NCBI RefSeq assembly: GCF_030295405.1
Contig: NZ_AP027080.1
Coordinates: forward strand, 620,001-684,000
Reading direction: 5' to 3'
DNA: 64,000 bases
Source of the DNA: Mesoterricola silvestris
GTDB lineage: Bacteria > Acidobacteriota > Holophagae > Holophagales > Holophagaceae
The position numbers were made by a program, and so were the translations under genes. The notes beneath the pieces were generated by a model. It was not told where the DNA came from. It did not search any database and saw nothing but the letters and a program-made list of their open reading frames with translations. Of the stretch, positions 9,659 through 55,942 are shown piece after piece (the stretch's first letter is position 1; each line of letters begins with the position of its first letter).

Positions 9659-10891
9659 ATGATGAAGCGCATGGCGCCCCTGGCCCTCGCCCTGGCCACG
9701 ATCCCCGCAGCCGCCCAGGCCCCCACGGTGGGGGGACTGGTGCAGGTGTGGTACACGCAGATGATGGACAGCAACCTCCGGCTCAACGGCGTGGGCAACT
9801 ACTACAACCTCCGCAGCGAGTTCAAGGAGAACGGCTTCAACCTCCGGCGCACCGAGCTGAGCCTCAAGGGGCCCATCCTCCCCGGCGTGGAGTACCAGGT
9901 GATGATCGATCCCTCCATCAACACCACCTCCGCCAACGCCGCCAACAGCAACGGCTCCTACAACCCCACGGTCCTCCAGGACGTCTTCATCACCTACACC
10001 TTCATGGGCGCGCAGGTGAAGGTGGGCCAGTTCAAGACCCTCCAGACCTACGAGGGCAACGTCAGTTCCTCGGAGCTGCTGTTCGCGGAGCGCAGCCAGC
10101 TGGGCCGGGTCTTCGGGGACAAGCGGGACCGGGGCCTGGTGGTGGCCATGCCCTTCGGCGACCCCAAGGAATTCGGTGGCCGGGTCTCCCTGGGCGCCTT
10201 CAACGGCATGTCGGACCTGGCTTCGGGCAAGGCCGGCGATTCCAACGCCGCCAAGGACTTCGTCCTGCGCCTGGACTTCAACGTCGGTTCCGCCCACACC
10301 TTCGGCGCCTACACCCTGCAGGGGAGCACGGACCAGACCGACAAGGGCGCCCTCCTGGCCAAGACCTTCGCCGGCGCCAACGCCCCCACCGCCGCCCAGG
10401 TGCTCGACAACAAGGACAAGACCACCAACCTGGGCGCCTTCTACGTCTACAAGGCGGGCCCCCTGCACCTGTCCGCCGAGTACCTCACGGGCCTCCTGGG
10501 CCGCCGCGGCCCCTCCGTGGGCGCCCAGGCCGGCGCCGCGGGCCGCGAGCACCTGGACCAGAAGTTCACCGGCTACTACCTCACCGGCGCCTACAGCTTC
10601 GGCCCGCACACCGTCCTGGCCCGCTACGACCTGCTCAACTACAACAGCGGCGACCAGTGGTACGCCGCCGCCAGCCCCTACATCAACGCCGGCGTGGACC
10701 TCAGCCCCAAGTTCACCGAGACCACCCTGGGATACACCTACGCCTTCAGCCCCGCCAAGGTGAAGGCCGCGAACCTGAAACTGAACTACATCCTCCGCAG
10801 CAAGAACTTCCTCAAGCCCCTCGCCTCCGCGGGGCAGACCTCGGAGCAGGGCGGGGACACGGTGGTGCTGGCGTTCCAGGTGGCGTTCTAG
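9659..10891 (+). CDS. Outer-membrane porin (phosphate-selective porin O/P-like), paralogue 1
   Basis: This protein has 410 residues. The signal peptide MMKRMAPLALALATIP ends at AAAQA, followed by a beta-strand-rich barrel with alternating aromatic and polar residues and a terminal Phe (VVLAFQVAF), as expected for outer-membrane insertion by BAM. Motifs such as WYTQMMDSNLR, NGFNLRRTELSLKG, QVKVGQFKTLQTYEG and REHLDQKFTGYYLTGAYSF resemble O/P-type porins. GGAGAAG lies just before the ATG. The second copy at 13514-14794 shares WYTQMMD, REHLDQKF, YNSGD, TETTLGY and ILRSKNFL, so these are paralogues separated by ycaQ and rsmI. The solute specificity is unknown. Confidence 0.8.
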   Translation: MMKRMAPLALALATIPAAAQAPTVGGLVQVWYTQMMDSNLRLNGVGNYYNLRSEFKENGFNLRRTELSLKGPILPGVEYQVMIDPSINTTSANAANSNGSYNPTVLQDVFITYTFMGAQVKVGQFKTLQTYEGNVSSSELLFAERSQLGRVFGDKRDRGLVVAMPFGDPKEFGGRVSLGAFNGMSDLASGKAGDSNAAKDFVLRLDFNVGSAHTFGAYTLQGSTDQTDKGALLAKTFAGANAPTAAQVLDNKDKTTNLGAFYVYKAGPLHLSAEYLTGLLGRRGPSVGAQAGAAGREHLDQKFTGYYLTGAYSFGPHTVLARYDLLNYNSGDQWYAAASPYINAGVDLSPKFTETTLGYTYAFSPAKVKAANLKLNYILRSKNFLKPLASAGQTSEQGGDTVVLAFQVAF

Positions 10892-10968
10892 TTCAAGGTT
10901 CCGACCCATCCCAAGCGTCGCTCCAGAAGCCACAAGATAGCCAGGCCATGAAAACCACGGTGCGGCTC
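10892..10968. other. Short unremarkable spacer after porin 1
   Basis: This spacer lies between the porin stop and the hairpin repeat. I see no gene, no clear terminator with a T-run and no promoter here. The repeat that follows may act as the transcription end. Confidence 0.4.
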
Positions 10969-11144
10969 ATCTGCCGGGAACAGGCTGAGTTCGACGGCTG
11001 ATCCCCTTCATCCTGTTCATCCGATTTCATCCCTGTTCCAGCAGGGCCAGAGCCGGGATGGGTCGGCGAATGCGGGTCAACTGCGCGCCGACCCACCTCA
11101 ACACTGACCCTGCGGGAACGGGGATGAAATCGGATGAAGGGGAT
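10969..11144. repeat. Dispersed hairpin repeat, copy 1 (core orientation A)
   Basis: The left arm (11001-11047) reads ATCCCCTTCATCC...ATTTCATCCC...GCAGGGCCAG. The right arm (11104-11144) is its reverse complement, apart from a 9-base tandem TCCTGTTCA found only on the left. Homology with copy 2 at 27308-27492 starts upstream of the arm (GCCGGGAAC, GGCTG, TCGACG), so those flanks are in the same orientation. The 53-bp core (GATGGGTCGGCG ... CGCGCCGACCCACCTC) instead matches the reverse complement of the copy 2 core, with about 10 mismatches and no gaps. The element lies between the convergent porin and ycaQ genes. It has no coding sign and no transposase; it is REP/MITE-like in size. Confidence 0.85.
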
Positions 11145-11213
11145 GATCATTCCCCGAAGAGCCGCCAAATTGGACTTCCGCTTTTTTTATACGGGGTGGG
11201 TCGGAAGGTTGGG

Positions 11214-12389
11214 CTAGATGGCGCCCGGCCCGGTCCATTGCACGTCCCGGGCGCCGATGCGGGCGGCGAGGGTCTCGGCGGCTCGGGATACGGCGGCTTT
11301 GCGGGCCCGGGTGGCGCGGATGCCCTTTTCGAACCAGAGCCCCTTGATCTCCAGGACGCCCTTGTCCCGGTGGAACTTGGGATCCAGCCGGCCCACCAGG
11401 GCCTCGCCCTCCAGGATGGGCAGGACGTAGTAGCCGTACTGCCGCTTCGCCTCGGGGACGAAGGCCTCGAAACGGAAATCGAAATCGAAGAGGCGCAGGG
11501 CCCGGGCCCGGTCCCGGAGGATGGGGTCGAAGGGGCAGAGGAGGACGGTGCGGTCGGAGGGCTCGGCGAGGCGGGCCTTCCAGTCCTCCACGGCGAAGGC
11601 CGGGCGGCCGTCCTCGGTCTCCACGGGGCGGACGCGGCCGGCCTTGGCGGCGGCGGCGCACCACCGGGCGGCTTCGGCGGGTTCCAGGGCGTCGTAGTAG
11701 GCGGCCAGCTCCCGGGGGGTGGCCACCCCCAGGCGCTCCAGGGCGGTGGAGCAGGCCCACTCGCGATGCTTGGCCAGGGTGGTGGCGGGCAGGGCGTGGG
11801 CGGCGGGGAAGACCCGCTCGGGGAGGTCGTAGACCTTGTGGAAGTTCACCCGCCGGGCCACGGCCAGTTCGCCGGCGTGCCACAGGAATTCCAGGGCGGC
11901 CTTCTGGGGCTTCCAGCCCCACCAGGCGCTGGCGCCCTTGTCCTGCTTGTGCTCGAAATCGGCGCTGCGCAGGGGGCCCTCGGCGCGGATGCGCTCCAGC
12001 ACCAGGTCCAGGAGCTCATCCACCCTGTCCCCCACCCGCTCCCGCCACCAGGCGTTCTGGAGGATCCGCGCGCGGCTGCGGGGGAAGCGCACCTTCCAGT
12101 GGGGGTACCAGGCCAGGGGGATGGCCGAGGCGTCGTGGGTCCAGTGCTCGAAGAGGCGGCGTTCGCCCAGGAAGAGGGCGTCGAAATCCGCGGGGGCGTA
12201 GCCTTCCAGGCGGCTGCCCAGGATGAGGTGGTGGGCCCGCTCCACCACGTTGATGGAATCCATCTGCACGTAGCCCAGCTGCCGGATCAGGGTGTCCAGG
12301 TCCGCCGGGGGCGGGCCCAGGAGGCCCTGGGCCGCCAGGAGGAGGCGCCGGGCCTGGGCTTGGGTGACGGGTTCGGGTTTCCGGGGCAT
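11214..12389 (-). CDS. YcaQ-type winged-helix DNA glycosylase
   Basis: The protein (391 aa) belongs to the HTH_42/YcaQ family, whose E. coli member unhooks interstrand cross-links as a DNA glycosylase. Supporting stretches are LIRQLGYVQMDSINVVERAH near the N-terminus, LGSRLEGYAPADFDALF, LFEHWTHDASAIPLAWYPHW, and the C-terminal LLCPFDPILRDRARALRLFDF followed by YGYYVLPILEGEALVGRLDPK. These are the usual family blocks. The start chosen is ATG at 12389 (MPRKPEP); the open frame extends further upstream but runs into rsmI sequence. It diverges from rsmI with about 58 bp between starts. Confidence 0.85.
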   Translation of the reverse strand: MPRKPEPVTQAQARRLLLAAQGLLGPPPADLDTLIRQLGYVQMDSINVVERAHHLILGSRLEGYAPADFDALFLGERRLFEHWTHDASAIPLAWYPHWKVRFPRSRARILQNAWWRERVGDRVDELLDLVLERIRAEGPLRSADFEHKQDKGASAWWGWKPQKAALEFLWHAGELAVARRVNFHKVYDLPERVFPAAHALPATTLAKHREWACSTALERLGVATPRELAAYYDALEPAEAARWCAAAAKAGRVRPVETEDGRPAFAVEDWKARLAEPSDRTVLLCPFDPILRDRARALRLFDFDFRFEAFVPEAKRQYGYYVLPILEGEALVGRLDPKFHRDKGVLEIKGLWFEKGIRATRARKAAVSRAAETLAARIGARDVQWTGPGAI

Positions 12390-27258: not shown

Positions 27259-27511
27259 CCCATCAGCTTCGCCCCGGGATGGACGGGTTGTCCAGAACCG
27301 GGTTGTCCATCGCCGGGAACCGGCTGGGCTCGACGCCTGATCCCCTTCATCCTGTTTATCCAATTTCATCCCCGTTCCCGCAGGGCCAGCGATGAGGTGG
27401 GGCGGCGCGTCGTTGATCTGCATGCGCCGACCCATCCGGGCACTGGCCCTGCGGGAACGGGGATGAAATTGGATGAATAGGATGAAGGGGATGCTGGAAG
27501 ACGGAGGGGGG
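27259..27511. other. Intergenic gap holding the second dispersed hairpin repeat
   Basis: The gap separates two minus-strand genes. Apart from the repeat at 27308-27492 it has only short GC-rich flanks. No promoter for the MFS gene is evident, so the repeat could lie inside the untranslated leader of that gene. Confidence 0.4.
27308..27492. repeat. Dispersed hairpin repeat, copy 2 (core orientation B)
   Basis: Arms at 27340-27389 and 27443-27492 pair over 50 bases with only two mismatches, both G-T wobbles, and no gap. The symmetry centre is 27416. Pairing continues into the core (GGTGGGGCGGCGCG against ATGCGCCGACCCATCC), so nearly all 153 bp can form one long hairpin. It is a homologue of the element at 10969-11144: the left flank is in the same orientation but the core is inverted. 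It lies between the tandem MFS and aminotransferase genes rather than at a convergent junction. Confidence 0.88.
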
Positions 27512-44964: not shown

Positions 44965-46527
44965 ATGGTCGCTCGATACTGCTGGTCGTTGGTGACAGTC
45001 GCCTGCATCGTTGGAACGGTGGGGTGCCACAAAAGCAACAGCCCCGCGGCCTCGTCGGTACCGGTCATAACCTCCTTCACGCCGACGCAGGGCCTGACCG
45101 GCTCCAAGATCGAAGTCTCGGGCTCGGGCTTCGACGGGACCACCACCGTGAGCGTCGGCGGCGTCACCGCGGACTGGAAGCGCAACAACAACAATTCCCT
45201 GACCGTGACGGTCCCCGACGGGGCCATGTCCGGCGTCATCGGCGTCGTGAACTCCCTGGGCAGCGGCGGCAGCACGACCACCTTCAGCGTCATCCCCACC
45301 GTCACGGCCATCAGCCCCACCAGCGGCTCCCCGGGCACCACCGTGACCCTCACCGGCACCGGCTTCACCGGATCCCAGGTGGTCAAGTTCGGAACCGGCC
45401 CCGCGGCCAATTTCTACGTCAACAGCGCCACCCAGATCCAGGCGGTGGTCCCCCTGGGCTCGTCCACCGGCCCCATCTCCGTCACCACCGTCAACGGCAG
45501 CGTCTCCCTCACGGCCACGTCGCCCACCTTCACCTATTCGGGCGGAGGCGTCACGGCCCCCGTGCTCACCTCCTTCACCCCCGCCCAGGCCGCCGTGGGC
45601 GATTACGTGGTCCTCGCGGGTTCCGGGTTCACCGGCGTCGCCGGCGCCTCCATCGGCGGGGTCAGCGCCTACTTCACGGTCACCAGCGACACGGCCATGA
45701 GCATCCAGGTTCCCGCGGCCGCGGCCTCCGGCTTCATCCAGCTCACGGGCGTCCTGGGCTCGGCCACGTCGGACACGCGCTTCCTCGTGACCCCGACCCT
45801 GTCCAGCTTCAGCCCCGCCACCGGCCCCTCCGGCACGCTGGTCACCCTCACGGGCACCGGATTCTCGGGCGCCACGTCGGTGACCTTCGGCAACGCGGTG
45901 GAATCCAAGTTCATCGTCATCGATTCCAACACCATCAAGGCCAACGTCAAGGCGGGCTCGGCCACGGGCCCCATCACGGTGACCACCAACGGCCTGACCG
46001 CCGCCAGCTCCACCAGCTTCACCTTCGTCCCCGACGCCGTCAACGCGCCCGTCATCACCGGGCTCACCCCCGTCAAGGCCGCCGTGGGCGACACGGTGAC
46101 CCTCACCGGCAGCGGCTTTACCGGCGTCTCGGACGTCACCGTGGGCGGCGCGGACGCGCCGAAGTTCGCGGTGACCGACGCGGCCACCCTCACGGTCACG
46201 GTGCCCAGCGCCGCCGCCACGGGCTTCATCACCGTCACCAACGCCCTGGGCGCCACCGCCTCCCCGGTGATCTTCACCGTCACCCCCACCGTCACCGGCC
46301 TCTCCGCCCTGTCCGGCAAGGTGGGCTCCACCCTGACCCTCACCGGCACCGGCTTCATCGGCGCCGAATCCGTGACCTTCACCGGCGGCCCCGCCGCCAA
46401 CTACGTGGTGGTGGACGCCAACACCATCACCGTCACCGTCCCCGACGGCGCCACCACCGGCGTCGTGAGCGTCTCCGCCTTCGGCACCACCGCCTCCAGC
46501 TCGGCCGTCTTCACCGTTTTGCCCTAG
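44965..46527 (+). CDS. Lipoprotein with six tandem IPT/TIG domains
   Basis: The 520-aa protein begins MVARYCWSLVTVACIVGTVG-Cys, a lipobox-type signal. The body is six ~80-residue IPT/TIG immunoglobulin-like repeats, each starting like VITSFTPTQG, VTAISPTSGSPGTTVTLTG, VLTSFTPAQAAVGDYVVLAG or VITGLTPVKAAVGDTVTLTG and carrying G-S-G-F--------V--GG. Repeat units are similar enough at DNA level to look recently amplified. Such proteins are usually surface or periplasmic structural modules. AAGGA lies 8 bases before the ATG. It is a homologue in style of the TIG lipoprotein at 30993-33209, without the unrecognised middle domain. Confidence 0.82.
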   Translation: MVARYCWSLVTVACIVGTVGCHKSNSPAASSVPVITSFTPTQGLTGSKIEVSGSGFDGTTTVSVGGVTADWKRNNNNSLTVTVPDGAMSGVIGVVNSLGSGGSTTTFSVIPTVTAISPTSGSPGTTVTLTGTGFTGSQVVKFGTGPAANFYVNSATQIQAVVPLGSSTGPISVTTVNGSVSLTATSPTFTYSGGGVTAPVLTSFTPAQAAVGDYVVLAGSGFTGVAGASIGGVSAYFTVTSDTAMSIQVPAAAASGFIQLTGVLGSATSDTRFLVTPTLSSFSPATGPSGTLVTLTGTGFSGATSVTFGNAVESKFIVIDSNTIKANVKAGSATGPITVTTNGLTAASSTSFTFVPDAVNAPVITGLTPVKAAVGDTVTLTGSGFTGVSDVTVGGADAPKFAVTDAATLTVTVPSAAATGFITVTNALGATASPVIFTVTPTVTGLSALSGKVGSTLTLTGTGFIGAESVTFTGGPAANYVVVDANTITVTVPDGATTGVVSVSAFGTTASSSAVFTVLP

Positions 46528-47099
46528 CTTCCTAATCATACGTGTCCCAGACCTTCGCCCCGGTTCGTCCTCGCCGGCTAAGCCGGCGAGGACGGGGATG
46601 ACAGAACGGACACAAAGTCGGTGCTCCGCCCATTCGCTTCGTTGAGCGGAGCGGAAGCCGGAACGGAAAGCCTCTCCTGGAGGTCCCTGGCGAGGAGCGG
46701 CTCCCACGTTTTCATGGATCCGCTTCGCGATAGACCTTTCGGCGCCGGTGGGCGCCGACGCTGCCTGGTGCGCACCTCCCCCAACCCATTGAAGCCATCC
46801 CGACCCCAGATCCGCTGACCCCGGTTTCAAGCGTTTGCCGCTTAACGCATTCAGCATTCGGCGCGAGCCAGCATCCTGGTCGAAACTCGCGAAGAGAGCC
46901 CCCCAGGTGGGTCGGGGCCAATGGGTGACAACACAGTCCCATGGATGAAAGGAGCGCTTTCCGTTGCTGCGGGCTTGGCCCGCAGCAACGACCCGGGCCG
47001 AACGTCGGGGACACGTGCGATTACCCAGCCGACCATTTTCTTGGCGACTTTTCCCTGGGGCCGACTAGAATTCCACAGGAATCAATCCCGGAGGCCTCC
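46528..47099. other. 572-bp gap without genes, with several hairpins
   Basis: I find no convincing gene here; the short frames that cross it lack ribosome sites and family-like sequence. Visible structure: a 14-bp perfect hairpin at 46566-46594 (CGTCCTCGCCGGCT A AGCCGGCGAGGACG), an imperfect one at 46623-46652, a palindrome GGTGCGCACC at 46767-46776, and a 13-bp perfect hairpin at 46962-46990 (CGTTGCTGCGGGC TTG GCCCGCAGCAACG). GGAGG near 47090 is the ribosome site of the next gene. The first hairpin may end the TIG gene; the second could be a leader structure. Confidence 0.6.
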
Positions 47100-47681
47100 A
47101 TGGCAGCGAAGAAGATCCTGATGCTCGTCGGTGATTTTGTCGAGGACTACGAAGTGATGGTCCCCTTCCAGATGCTCCTGATGGTGGGCCACACCGTCCA
47201 CGCCGTGTGCCCGGACAAGAAGCCCGGGGACTTCGTGCGCACCGCCATCCACGACTTCGAGGGCGACCAGACCTATTCCGAAAAGCCCGGCCACCGCTTC
47301 ACCCTGAACGCCTCCTTCGCCGAGGCCCGGGCCGAGGACTACGACGCCCTGGTCATCCCCGGGGGCCGCGCCCCCGAGTACCTGCGCCTCAACCCCAAGG
47401 TCCTGGACCTGGTGCGGGCCATGGCCAAGGCCGGCAAGCCCATCGCCGCCATCTGCCACGGCCCCCAGATCCTGGCCGCCGCCGGCGTCCTGGAAGGCCG
47501 CCCCTGCACCGCCTACCCCGCCGTGGGCCCCGAAGTGACCGAGGCCCGCGGGAAATTCGTGGACATCCCCGTGGACAAGGCCCACGTGGACGGCAACCTC
47601 GTGACCGCCCCCGCCTGGCCCGCCCACCCCGACTGGATCGCCAAATTCCTCAACGTCCTCGGCACCCGCATCGAGCTCTGA
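47100..47681 (+). CDS. DJ-1/PfpI family protein (class I glutamine-amidotransferase-like)
   Basis: The ATG at 47100 has GGAGG 6 bases upstream and starts [20 protein letters not shown]; an upstream in-frame extension crosses hairpins and is rejected. The 193-residue product has the DJ-1/PfpI flavodoxin-like fold with [15 protein letters not shown], the nucleophile elbow [20 protein letters not shown] (Cys near 120) and the acidic Glu in GDFVEDYE that pairs with it. Family members are deglycases, chaperones or proteases. The downstream region converges on the RND gene and holds the large inverted repeat. Confidence 0.88.
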
Positions 47682-47719
47682 GGCCGGGTGGGTTTGGATT
47701 TCCCGGAGGGGCCGAGGCG

Positions 47720-48116
47720 TCCCCGCCGGGGGCCGCAGGTTTGTTCCACCGGGTTCCAGGCCTGAACCGCGACCCAAAGGGGTCCCATCCCCGGGCCCCG
47801 ACCCACCGGTAGCGCATTCGCAGCAGCGAGCTGCTGCGAATGCGCTGGCCGTTGTCCATTGATGGAGGGGGGGATGAGTGGGGAGGGGGCTCCCTTTCGG
47901 AACGGCCTCCGGGTGCGGTCCAGGTGGGCCGTATGCCGCGAAGAGCGCGTCCCACCTCCTCGACAACACGTTCTCAATGGATCACGGCAAGCGCAATCGC
48001 AGCAGCTTGCTGCTGGGATCGCGCTACCGATGGGTCGGCGCCCGGGGATGGGACCCCTATGGGTCGGGGCTCAGGACGGGAACCCGGCGGAACAAACCTG
48101 CGGCCCCCGGCAGGGA
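47720..48116. repeat. About 397-bp symmetric inverted repeat with nested hairpins
   Basis: The centre of symmetry is 47918. Bases 47731-47846 pair with 47990-48105 over 116 positions with about 13 differences and no gaps, and weak pairing extends to the ends given. Each arm ends inward in its own hairpin: 47811-47846 is a perfect 17-bp stem (AGCGCATTCGCAGCAGC GA and its complement), and 47990-48025 is an imperfect mirror. Inner pairing GGCCGTTGTCCATTGA continues ~16 bases, then ~100 bp is unpaired. It fills the gap between the convergent PfpI and RND genes (stops 47681 and 48184). No ORF is credible. Confidence 0.88.
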
Positions 48117-48183
48117 TCGCTTGGACGGGAGGCAAGGGAAAGGCGCCCGCAGCATGGCCGCGGGCGCCTTCGGTCTGCCGGCC

Positions 48184-51100
48184 CTACTTCCGCAGCGCGG
48201 TCCGGATCCTTTCCCAGGCCTTCTTCCAGGTGAAGGCGTCCAGGAGGTCGAAGAAGACCGGGATGACGATGAGGGTGAGGAGGGTGGAGGTGATGATGCC
48301 GCCCACCACGGCACGGGCCATGGGGGCCCGCATCTGGGCGCCGGCGCCCAGGGCCAGGAAGAGGGGGAGCATGCCGCCCACCATGGCGAAGGTGGTCATG
48401 AGGATGGGCCGGAGACGGGTGGTGCCGGCCTCGATGAGGGCGTCCTTGCGGCTCATGCCCTCCTCCCGGATGTTCTGCAGGGCGCGGTCCACCAGGAGGA
48501 TGGCGTTCTTGGTGACCAGGCCCATGAGGAGGATGAGGCCGATGCTCGTCATCATGCTCTGGGCGTCGCCCGTGATGAGCAGCATCATCACCAGGCCCAC
48601 CATGGAAAGGGGGAGGCTCAGCATGATGGTGATGGGGAGCTTGAAACTCTCGAACTGGCTGGCCAGGACGAAGTAGATGAAGGCCACGGCCATGAGCATG
48701 GCGGTGCCCATGTAGCCGGCGGTCTCCTTGTTGTTGCGGGCGGAGCCGGTGAAGGCCACCTCCACGCCTTCGGGGAGGGTGCCCTTCTTCTTCAGGGCGG
48801 CCAGTTTCACGTTGGCGTCGGCCACCACCTCGTTGAGGGTCCGGCCCTCCTTGTTGGTGGAGATGAGGATCTGGGACTGCAGGGCGCGGCGCTGGAGCTT
48901 GGCGGGGGCCGTGGTCTCCTCGAAGCGGGCCACGTTGCTGAGCTTGACCTGGAGGTTGTTGCCGGCCTTGTCCTTCTTGGTGGAGCCCACGGTCATGCCT
49001 TCCAGCAGGTCGCCCCGGGAGCGGTTGGCGTCCGAAAGGCGCACGGTGACGTCGTACTGCTCGCCGGTGCCGGGGTCCTCGAACTTCGCCACGTCCACGC
49101 CGTCCACCAGGGGGCGCACCAGGTTGGCCACGGCCATGGGGGAGACCCCCAGGTCCGAGGCCCGCCGGCGGTCCACGGCCAGGCGCAGTTCGGGCTTGCC
49201 CAGGTCCTTGCTGCTGGACACGTCCACCACGCCGTCGATGCCCTTCAGCAGGTCCCGCACGATGGGCTCGGCCTGCTCCATGGCCCTGCGGTCGGGGGAC
49301 ATGACGGCCAGGGCGATGGGCTTGCTGTCGCCGAAGTCCGAAACGGCGGAGATGTCGGTCTCCACCCCGGGCACGGCCCGGAAGCGGTCCCGCAGCTCGC
49401 GGCGGATGTAGACCATGTCCCGGCGGCGGCCTTCGGAAAGCTTGACGTAGATGGTGCCCTCGGTGATGGTGCCGTTCAGGCCGGTGCCGATGGTGGTGTA
49501 GACGTGCTCGACCTCCTTGTTCTCCTTGCCGTCGGGGCGGGTGGAGATGATCTGCTCGAGCTGGGCCGCCTTGCGGCGGGAGGCCTCGAGGCTGGCGCCG
49601 GACTCCACCTTGAAGCCCACCTGGAAGTCGCCGCGGTCGTAGTCGGGCATGAAGTCGCCGCCCAGGAGGGGCATGAGGACGATGGCCAGGGCGAAGCTCG
49701 CCAGGCCGATGCCCAGCACCGTCCAGCGGTGGCCCATGGCCCAGGTGATGGCGCTCTTGTAGGCCTTCTCCCAGCCGTCCAGCTTGTCGTTGAACCAGTC
49801 CACGGTCTTCATGATGAAGTGGCGGTGGCCGTGGTGGGACTCCTGGTAGCCCTTCTCGTGCTCGGGATCGGGCCACACGGCGCTGAGCATGGGATCCAGG
49901 GTGAAGCTCACGAAGAGCGAGACGGCCACGGCGAAGGCGACGGTGATGCCGAAGGAGAAGAAGAACCTGCCCACGATGCCGCCCATGAAGGCCACGGGGA
50001 TGAACACCGCCAGGATGGACAGGGTGGTGGCGATGACGGCGGGGCCGATCTCCGCGGTGCCCTCCCGGGCCGCGGTGATGTGGTCCTTGCCCATTTCGGC
50101 GTGGCGGGTGATGTTCTCCCGCACCACGATGGCGTCGTCGATGAGGATGCCGATGGCCAGCGAGATGGCCATGAGGGTCATGGTGTTCAGCGTGAAGTCC
50201 AGGACCTTCATGATGGTGAAGGTGCTGATGACGGACACGGGGAGCGTGAGGCTGGTGATGATCGTGGACCGCCAGCTCTTGAGGAAGTAGAAGACGATGA
50301 TGACGGTGAGGATGCCGCCCAGGACGATGGAGACCACGACGTCGTCGACGGAATCATTGATGAACTTGGAGTTGTCCTTGGCCTTCACGGTCGTGACGCC
50401 CATTTTCGCGAGGTCGGGCTTCAGGCGCTCCACGGCGGCGTCCACGCTGCGCACCATGGCCACGGTGTTGCCGCCGATCTGCTTCTGGATTTCCAGGGCC
50501 ACGGCGTCGGTGCCGTCCATGCGGGCCAGGCTGCGCTTCTCCTTGATGCCGTCCACCAGGGTGGCCACTTCGCGGAGCTCGATGGGCCGGCCCTTCTGGT
50601 TGCCCACGACGACGCTGTTGAAGTCCTCCACCTTCCGGGCCTTGGCGTCGACCCGGACGCTGATCTCGCGGGTCTCGGTGAGGAGGTTGCCGCTGGGGAT
50701 GGCCATGGTGTCCTGGCCCAGGGCGTTCATGACCTGGGGCAGGGTGAGGCCCAGGGACTCCAGCTTCTGGGGATCCACCTGCACCAGGATGTTGCGGGTG
50801 GAGCCGCCCACCACCTCGGCCTTGCCCACGCCGGGGATGTTCTCCAGGCGGCGCTTGAGGAACTCGTCGGCGATGCGGGTGACCTCGCGGTTGCCCATGC
50901 CCTTGTGGGCGTCGTCGGGCTTGACGATGAGGCTCAGGACGGGGAGCTGGGCGGGGTCGAACTTCTGGATGATGGGTTCCTTGATGGTGTCGGGCAGGTT
51001 GCGCCGGATCTGGCCCACCTTGCTGCGCACGTCGTCCAGGGCCTTGTCCACGTCGCGCTCGATCTCGAACTCGACGGTGACGGTGCCCAGGCCGTCCTGG

Positions 51101-51351
51101 CTGGTGGAGCTGATCTCCCGCACCTTCTCGATGGGGTTGACGGCCTCCTCGATCTTCTTGATGACGTCCTGCTCGACGGCGTCGGGGCTGGCGCCGGGGT
51201 AGACGACGCTGATGGTGACCACCGGCATGTCGACCTTGGGGAAGCTGTCGAGGCCCAGGCCCTTGATGGAGAAGAGGCCCAGGACCACGAGGGCCAGCAT
51301 GACGCAGGTGGTCAGCACGGGCCTCTTGATGGATAGATCGGAAAGGAACAT
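48184..51351 (-). CDS. RND efflux transporter, inner-membrane pump subunit (AcrB/MdtC-like, HAE1 type)
   Basis: The 1055-residue protein is a resistance-nodulation-division pump driven by protons. It has the twelve-helix layout with two large periplasmic loops. Diagnostic stretches are MFLSDLSIKRPVLTTCVMLA, VDMPVVTISVVYPGASPDAV, AISLAIGILIDDAIVVRENI in helix 4 (the proton-relay Asp-Asp), and a second half with LMGLVTKNAILLVDRAL. The fold and length match HAE1 drug exporters. The gene follows the membrane-fusion gene with 3 bp between them and ends at the 397-bp inverted repeat. The substrate is unknown. Confidence 0.95.
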   Translation of the reverse strand: MFLSDLSIKRPVLTTCVMLALVVLGLFSIKGLGLDSFPKVDMPVVTISVVYPGASPDAVEQDVIKKIEEAVNPIEKVREISSTSQDGLGTVTVEFEIERDVDKALDDVRSKVGQIRRNLPDTIKEPIIQKFDPAQLPVLSLIVKPDDAHKGMGNREVTRIADEFLKRRLENIPGVGKAEVVGGSTRNILVQVDPQKLESLGLTLPQVMNALGQDTMAIPSGNLLTETREISVRVDAKARKVEDFNSVVVGNQKGRPIELREVATLVDGIKEKRSLARMDGTDAVALEIQKQIGGNTVAMVRSVDAAVERLKPDLAKMGVTTVKAKDNSKFINDSVDDVVVSIVLGGILTVIIVFYFLKSWRSTIITSLTLPVSVISTFTIMKVLDFTLNTMTLMAISLAIGILIDDAIVVRENITRHAEMGKDHITAAREGTAEIGPAVIATTLSILAVFIPVAFMGGIVGRFFFSFGITVAFAVAVSLFVSFTLDPMLSAVWPDPEHEKGYQESHHGHRHFIMKTVDWFNDKLDGWEKAYKSAITWAMGHRWTVLGIGLASFALAIVLMPLLGGDFMPDYDRGDFQVGFKVESGASLEASRRKAAQLEQIISTRPDGKENKEVEHVYTTIGTGLNGTITEGTIYVKLSEGRRRDMVYIRRELRDRFRAVPGVETDISAVSDFGDSKPIALAVMSPDRRAMEQAEPIVRDLLKGIDGVVDVSSSKDLGKPELRLAVDRRRASDLGVSPMAVANLVRPLVDGVDVAKFEDPGTGEQYDVTVRLSDANRSRGDLLEGMTVGSTKKDKAGNNLQVKLSNVARFEETTAPAKLQRRALQSQILISTNKEGRTLNEVVADANVKLAALKKKGTLPEGVEVAFTGSARNNKETAGYMGTAMLMAVAFIYFVLASQFESFKLPITIMLSLPLSMVGLVMMLLITGDAQSMMTSIGLILLMGLVTKNAILLVDRALQNIREEGMSRKDALIEAGTTRLRPILMTTFAMVGGMLPLFLALGAGAQMRAPMARAVVGGIITSTLLTLIVIPVFFDLLDAFTWKKAWERIRTALRK

Positions 51352-55510: not shown

Positions 55511-55942
55511 GGGCGGGTTCCAGTTCGGCGCGCCGCGGGTTCGGTGACGCAGGCAAGCTGCGTCACCGGAGGGCTCACCGCTGCGAGTTGTGGTGGAGTG
55601 TTCGCACACTCCGGCTTCATTGGGGGGGTGGGCGGCGGGAGGAGCTCCTCTCTCCGGGAAGGCCTATCCATCGGGGGTACGCTGCGAGTGGTCCTGGCGG
55701 AGGGTGGATTCGCGCCGACGCTGACTGGTCAACGTCGGCGCGAATCCATCTTCAAGGCCCGCGACTCGCAGCGTGGCCCTGACGCGTAGGTCCATCCGGA
55801 GAGCCTCCGCCTCCGGTTCACCACCCCGCGCAGCGAAGCCGGAGTGTGCGAACACTCTTCCACAACCCGCAGCGGTGAGCTTTCCGGTGACGCAGCTTGC
55901 CTGCGTCACCGAACCTGCGGCGCGCCGAACGGGAACCCGGCC
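55511..55942. repeat. 432-bp perfectly symmetric inverted repeat filling a convergent intergenic gap
   Basis: The symmetry centre is 55726.5 along the whole length, with no insertion or deletion. The outer 108 bases (55511-55618) match the reverse complement of 55835-55942 with about 8 differences. A middle ~80 bases per side are diverged, and the inner ~40 bases pair again (CGCTGCGAGT and the perfect 14-bp stem at 55707-55720/55733-55746). Each arm contains two more hairpins: GGTGACGCAG-GCAAG-CTGCGTCACC at 55543-55567 and GGAGTGT-TCGC-ACACTCC at 55595-55612, mirrored at 55886-55910 and 55841-55858. It spans the gap between stops at 55506 and 55943. Mirror ORFs of 81 codons on both strands are a consequence of the symmetry. 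Confidence 0.92.

Follow-up and report, generated by a model that had tools for sequence, protein, structure and literature searches.

Palindromic Repeats Behind Stop Codons of Mesoterricola silvestris, a Probable Family of REP/BIME/MITE-Like Non-Autonomous Mobile Elements

Introduction

REP, REPIN, and BIME sequences are intergenic hairpin repeats that often occur as inverted pairs, form mosaics, and lie near the 3′ ends of genes, between convergent and unidirectional genes, some of them being species-specific (PMC3733652, PMC3116915). A bias of published REPs to convergent and unidirectional gaps has been documented, and the phyla listed in the same study for GTAG or CGTC repeats do not include the Acidobacteriota (PMC3733652).

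Three further kinds of DNA element invite comparison. Bacterial MITEs (such as RUP, NEMIS/Correia, ERIC, and Nezha) are short, non-coding, and bounded by inverted repeats, form strong RNA hairpins, and have many copies beside genes. IS5-family elements that target CTAG may also be considered, as may bidirectional intrinsic terminators, which share position and hairpin-forming ability with the element described here. This element is a palindrome between two tail-to-tail genes of the acidobacterium Mesoterricola silvestris. It lies in a window of 64,000 nucleotides, namely bases 620001-684000 of the 4.99-Mb single-contig genome (referred to as G000; relatives are referred to as G001 to G005), and the part read has a G+C content of 68%.

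Materials and Methods

Genes were called here with a dicodon model trained on GC by codon position, rather than taken from the reference annotation, and one missed gene was noted. Each gap was scored against its own reverse complement, and a score of at least 60 was taken as a symmetric palindrome. The enrichment test covered 1.26 of the 4.99 Mb (about a quarter of the genome), with 59 convergent, 87 tandem, and 65 divergent gaps of 150 bp to 1.5 kb. Loci of the family under study (F1, see below) beyond the first 1.26 Mb were picked because they bear F1, and therefore inform its anatomy, not the enrichment. Final family assignments were made with nhmmer models, which replaced an assignment by word rules.

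Results and Discussion

The Palindrome at the Window Junction

A first-pass annotation of the window had described an inverted repeat of about 397 bp at a convergent junction, with arms of 116 bases. The repeat is real, but the arms were drawn too short: the inverted-repeat search of the window found arms of 143 nt that are 88% complementary without gaps and 111 nt apart (Table 1). Gapped self-alignment gives a span of 47717-48120 and a score of 220, compared to a top score of 41 in shuffles of 80 sampled gaps. As RNA, the sequence is predicted to fold at -332 kcal/mol vs. -195 +/- 6 in dinucleotide shuffles (z = -21), and 0 of 100 shuffles folded as well. The stem-loop ascribed to each arm is present, and the diverged centre of about 100 bp corresponds to the variable centre between the arms; the first bases (AG) of the left-arm hairpin complete a GTAG tetranucleotide. 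Among the Rfam 15 covariance models, none matched the window above its gathering score.

The palindrome is flanked tail to tail by a DJ-1/PfpI gene (plus strand, stop at 47681) and a gene for an RND-type efflux pump (minus strand, 48184-51351), a name that rests on the translated sequence and on matches to paralogues. The PfpI gene lies between two elements, with an F2 pair on its upstream side and this F1 pair on its downstream side.

Table 1. Features of the window palindrome and related elements (window coordinates)
Feature	Position	Strand	Evidence
Left arm, F1 half-module pointing inward	47720..47862	+	Inverted-repeat search; nhmmer F1> 47677-47905
Right arm, F1 half-module pointing inward	47974..48116	-	Inverted-repeat search; nhmmer F1< 47939-48154
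Variable centre, unconserved among copies	47863..47973	.	Inverted-repeat search and copy comparison
Conserved outer box CCCCGCCGGGGGCCGCA (family consensus CCCTGCCGGGGGCCGC)	47721..47737	+	Half-module consensus of 42 halves
Left-arm conserved inner box GCCCCGACCCACCGGTAGCGC	47795..47815	+	Pattern search of own genome (66 copies)
Right-arm conserved inner box GCGCCGACCCATCGGTAGCGC	48021..48041	-	Genome pattern search
Left-arm hairpin	47811..47846	+	Perfect 17-bp stem, 2-nt loop; stem covaries across copies
Right-arm hairpin	47990..48025	-	Inverted-repeat search; stem covariation across copies
Terminator-like hairpin of pump gene, outside palindrome	48140..48170	-	Inverted-repeat search; G004 junction
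F2 pair in tandem gap upstream of PfpI gene	46519..47035	.	nhmmer F2> F2<
F2 member at other convergent junction (first element of the first-pass annotation)	55511..55942	.	Inverted-repeat search; nhmmer
F3 element in tandem gap	27302-27495		nhmmer
F3 element at convergent junction, CTAG and terminal inverted repeat at both ends	10888..11217	.	Pattern search 630888+ and 631193-631217-; nhmmer

Four Families and the Anatomy of the Half-Module

The window palindrome belongs to a family, tentatively referred to as F1, with about 40 loci in its own genome. The second palindrome reported for the window, at 55511, is also real (arms of 118 nt, 90%) and belongs to another family, F2, with a similar number of loci. 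Two additional families, F3 and F4, consist of palindromes of about 150-200 bp within larger gaps, in the same type of location. It had been suggested that the two window elements have a common architecture rather than a common sequence. A common plan and place do hold across families, but each element also has its own sequence relatives, in F1 and F2 respectively.

Both F1 and F2 are built as pairs of inward-facing half-modules. All 43 of the simple two-half elements point inward and 0 outward; they comprise 22 F1 pairs, 16 F2 pairs, and 5 F1/F2 mosaics, four of which were read by nhmmer as F2> F1< and one as F1> F2<. F1 thus shows the inverted pairs at high copy number that characterize REPs and REPINs, and the mosaics represent the mixing of modules that characterizes BIMEs. 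What unites the families is the inward half-modules with hairpins, the site just behind stop codons, and the F1/F2 mosaics; a short TGGGTCGGC-like core is common to F1 and F3. A model of one half per gene end was rejected, since tandem gaps contain full pairs as well as single halves that are often mis-oriented.

Within an F1 half-module the order is CCCTGCCGGGGGCCGC, spacer, GGTTCC, spacer, CGACCCA-GGGGT-CC, spacer, GCGCCGACCCA-CGGTAGCGC, hairpin, and GCCGT. Identity among all halves is about 90% in conserved columns and 34% in variable columns, and reaches 44% between partner arms in the variable columns. In these columns, 10 of 42 halves have their own partner arm as closest relative, where chance would give about 1. 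Hairpin stems differ between copies by matched pair changes. Most F1 halves have a GTAG that overlaps the first bases of the 36-nt hairpin; the tetranucleotide lies within a larger conserved box.

Conserved boxes whose order is fixed but whose spacers vary freely may be read as a DNA-architecture site, e.g., for binding of gyrase or a nucleoid protein at converging genes, for which BIMEs are a known precedent. Such a role is very improbable for F1; the absence of the elements from sister species (see below) argues against it being essential. The same box-like conservation exceeds what would be seen in a decaying transposon and so counts against a mobile origin; the boxes could have a function.

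Concentration at Convergent Junctions

Of the convergent gaps in the 1.26 Mb, 34 held a symmetric palindrome, vs. 9 tandem gaps and 0 divergent ones. By the family models, modules occupy 52 of 128 convergent gaps vs. 20 of 643 tandem and 5 of 128 divergent gaps in the same region (Fisher p = 3e-29 for convergent vs. tandem, and 3e-13 for convergent vs. divergent). Enrichment at convergent gaps, on which the first-pass annotation had staked its proposal, is thus borne out. The 40 F1 gaps, which include loci outside the 1.26 Mb picked for their F1, split into 24 convergent, 15 tandem, and 1 divergent. In tandem gaps, the median distance of F1 is 15 bp to the stop and 100 bp to the following start.

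So strong a bias in place would fit a bidirectional 3′-end structure that is selected by the host, and kept or rebuilt, to block or terminate convergent transcription or to protect mRNA 3′ ends. Conserved boxes with random spacers and covarying stems would also fit, as would one terminator-like match with a T-rich tail in the right arm (48114-48097), a weak match of a kind of which shuffles average 0.4. We nevertheless consider such a structure rather unlikely. Full pairs also sit in tandem gaps, the F1/F2 mosaics persist with halves of unlike sequence, and mismatches between F1 arms show no excess of G-T over A-C (193 vs. 184, with families there assigned by word rules and a few of them wrongly). 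The pump gene, moreover, has its own terminator-like hairpin outside the palindrome, matched at the same place in the congener G004, which is without the palindrome. Bidirectional intrinsic terminators differ from F1 in this respect, as the window F1 sits beside an existing terminator-like hairpin, and also in that F1 is about ten times larger, forms a dispersed family, and is absent from sister species.

Distribution Among Relatives and Empty Sites

A search of 41 genomes for the F1 box, allowing up to 2 mismatches, gave 66 matches in G000, 6 in G005, and 2 in G002; the 38 other relatives had none. The element had no match in the plasmid collection searched, and one exact match to an Actinomycetota metagenome bin in a pattern scan of species genomes was judged to be due to chance.

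The congener G004 (about 91% protein identity to G000) allows orthologous junctions to be compared. At the window junction, the gap measures 502 bp in G000 vs. 49 bp in G004, with 96.5 and 94.6% protein identity for PfpI and the pump respectively. For 14 module-bearing convergent junctions with G004 orthologues, the median own gap is 413 bp, while the G004 gap is at most 111 bp in 10 of the 14 and at most 21 bp in 7 of these ten (examples are -4, -4, -4, 0, 3, and 21 bp). Module-free convergent gaps are about equal in length in the two genomes (medians -4 and 0 bp). The elements are therefore insertions missing from the same junctions of a congener, not a conserved trait of convergent junctions. 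They are non-coding and polymorphic between relatives, as MITEs are. That the G004 junctions manage without the element, many of their stops overlapping or abutting, also argues against a structure selected by the host. Short F1-like scraps survive in G004 at 406984 and 789061 (gaps of 111 and 108 bp); part of the absences in that genome thus reflect loss, not sites that never received an insertion.

G005 and G000 have F1 in common at two junctions, with scrambled spacers and a replaced stem, where the flanking genes are about 90% and 83% identical. A third junction is occupied by F3 in G000 (4283322-4283560) and by an F1-type element in G005 (score 256, contig L222 1366-1962). The arms of this G005 element look nearly perfect, spacers included. 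An exchange of this kind could be taken as support for a host-selected 3′ structure; with about 40% of convergent gaps occupied, however, a swap of F3 and F1 at one junction between two species is unremarkable. It is unlikely that selection acts on a long symmetric palindrome as such, not on its sequence, at convergent junctions of this lineage, with unrelated mobile families being recruited, swapped, and homogenized between arms. In G005 and G002, the draft contigs (L116, L117) break off within the pump gene, 20-40 codons short of the window junction, as though assembly had been interrupted by the palindrome.

TAG Stops, F3, and a Resident IS5-Family Element

The genes beside the elements tend to end in TAG. 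TAG stops make up 35 of 63 beside F1 (p = 1e-5), 28 of 38 beside F2 (p = 1e-8), and 41 of 69 beside F3, compared to 238 of 869 at unoccupied gene ends. The bias persists when convergent gaps (module-adjacent share 0.59 vs. 0.38, p = 9e-4) and tandem gaps (0.65 vs. 0.24, p = 2e-4) are taken separately, and weakens when the comparison is with unoccupied convergent gaps 60 bp or longer (p = 0.07). The tetranucleotide CTAG is rare (0.33 per kb vs. 3 expected), and 128 of its 412 occurrences in the 1.26 Mb are at stop codons.

In F3, the terminal repeat CCCAANGTTCCGACCCACCCC directly adjoins CTAG, with 34 pattern matches vs. 1 for the control, and F3 is flanked by CTAG on both sides in G000 where G004 has a single CTAG at 702548. 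With CTAG thus duplicated, both stops are restored. Target choice at CTAG stop codons is thus a good explanation of the junction bias of F3.

The genome also harbors an IS5-family element (DUF4096 and DDE_Tnp_1) that sits at a gene end with CTAG on its flanks, the G004 counterpart being an empty site with one CTAG. Its two copies, outside the window in the same genome (138958-140465 and 840079-841586), are 1.5 kb long and 88.7% identical, and both have the terminal repeat GGGCTGTCGGCAAACC, CTAG on both sides, a PDDEXK_3 passenger ORF, and an F3-like segment. IS-like ends were also seen on six small convergent-gap elements of the genome (902467, 957940, 1040604, 1055322-1055630, 1088359, and 1155672-1156071), which lie mostly beside TAG stops and are likely MITEs of the IS5-family element. 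F3-type small elements have the same target as IS5-family elements and in some cases a similar terminal repeat, and F3 resembles MITEs in its terminal repeats and in CTAG at both ends.

Could F1 itself be a MITE mobilized by a transposase of the IS5 family, with CTAG or related stop codons as the target? This more specific form of a mobile origin is suggested by the CTAG-flanked resident element with its empty site in G004, by the F3 repeat adjoining CTAG, by the TGGGTCGGC core that F1 boxes have in common with F3 ends, and by the TAG-rich neighbors of F1. It is a possibility that we consider rather unlikely. For F1, a TAG bias is all that is observed; CTAG is not enriched beside it, the base before TAG being G in 20 of 35 cases. 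The resident IS repeat GGGCTGTCGGCAAACC mismatches the F1 outer consensus, and neither a terminal repeat nor a target duplication of F1 was found. F1 therefore differs from IS5-family elements in having ends unlike the IS terminal repeat, its link to them consisting of the short common core and the TAG-stop bias only.

Searches for a Mover

RAYT genes (PF01797, Y1 transposase) gave 0 matches in G000, G001, G002, and G005. Among the genomes G000 to G005, PF01797 matches were confined to G003 and G004, both of which are without the F1 box; these two carry Y1 transposase genes of the IS200-like type, of which several are interrupted by in-frame stops. This distribution makes it quite improbable that F1 is a classic GTAG-tagged REPIN whose RAYT transposase has since been lost from the lineage. 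Such an origin would account for GTAG preceding the inner hairpin in most copies, for inverted pairs that, like REPINs, carry the tags on the outside, and for a location bias equal to that published for REPs (PMC3733652). GTAG, however, is replaced by GTAC in a subgroup of F1 and is missing from the F2 consensus. Moreover, REPs measure 20-40 bp, whereas an F1 element spans about 400 bp, has arms of 140 nt, and bears several boxes that lie outside its hairpin. Thus F1 differs from REPs in size, in a host without a RAYT gene, and in the inconstancy of GTAG.

As to other transposases, the IS630-type DDE_3 domain (PF13358) is absent from the genome of M. silvestris, and PF01609 is represented there by a single IS, present in two copies, with ends unlike those of F1. 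No autonomous relative was seen among the F1 loci examined. A 3.7-kb gap between F1 copies (1514384-1518100) was considered as an autonomous element and rejected, as its 854-aa ORF is not transposase-like. A direct duplication may surround the ORF (membrane-permease-like), since the two F1 copies there, 3 kb apart, have their outer flanks in common. The searches for a target-site duplication, an exact terminus, or a terminal repeat of F1 found none; the outer edge fades into the gene ends, and comparison with G004 failed to reveal a target duplication as intergenic divergence is too high. Compared to MITEs, F1 accordingly has no defined terminal repeat, target duplication, or autonomous parent in these data, and its inverted symmetry spans nearly the whole element.

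A Probable Mobile Origin and Its Implications

Taken together, F1 is probably a lineage-specific set of non-autonomous mobile palindromes of the REP/BIME/MITE kind that inserted behind stop codons and were tolerated there. The observations that carry this are the multi-copy family, the inward half-module pairs, the empty junctions of the congener, the TAG-rich neighbors, and the F1/F2 mosaics. F1 works like a REP/BIME or a MITE, yet departs from each on one point, having no RAYT in the first case and no autonomous parent in the second. It is a variant of this broad kind, and a member of neither the REPs nor a named MITE family.

We infer that F1 rose to many copies within the lineage that comprises G000, G005, and G002, settling directly behind stop codons, probably by transposition. 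Its junction bias may reflect a target preference at TAG-containing stops combined with selection against harmful insertions: insertions in convergent gaps, or near the stop in tandem gaps, would persist because neither a gene nor a promoter is broken. After insertion, the likeness of the arms may have been kept by copying between them (template switching) or by selection. The inserted palindrome probably forms the long hairpin 3′ end of transcripts that enter it from either side.

The genome of M. silvestris thus offers a compact and well-sampled case of small palindromic DNA colonizing gene ends, with four families in one genome, and extends REP/BIME-like biology to an acidobacterium without RAYT. 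A bias to TAG or CTAG stops can explain why repeats gather between convergent genes without invoking a function, and whether they have a selected role or reflect targeted insertion becomes a directly testable question.
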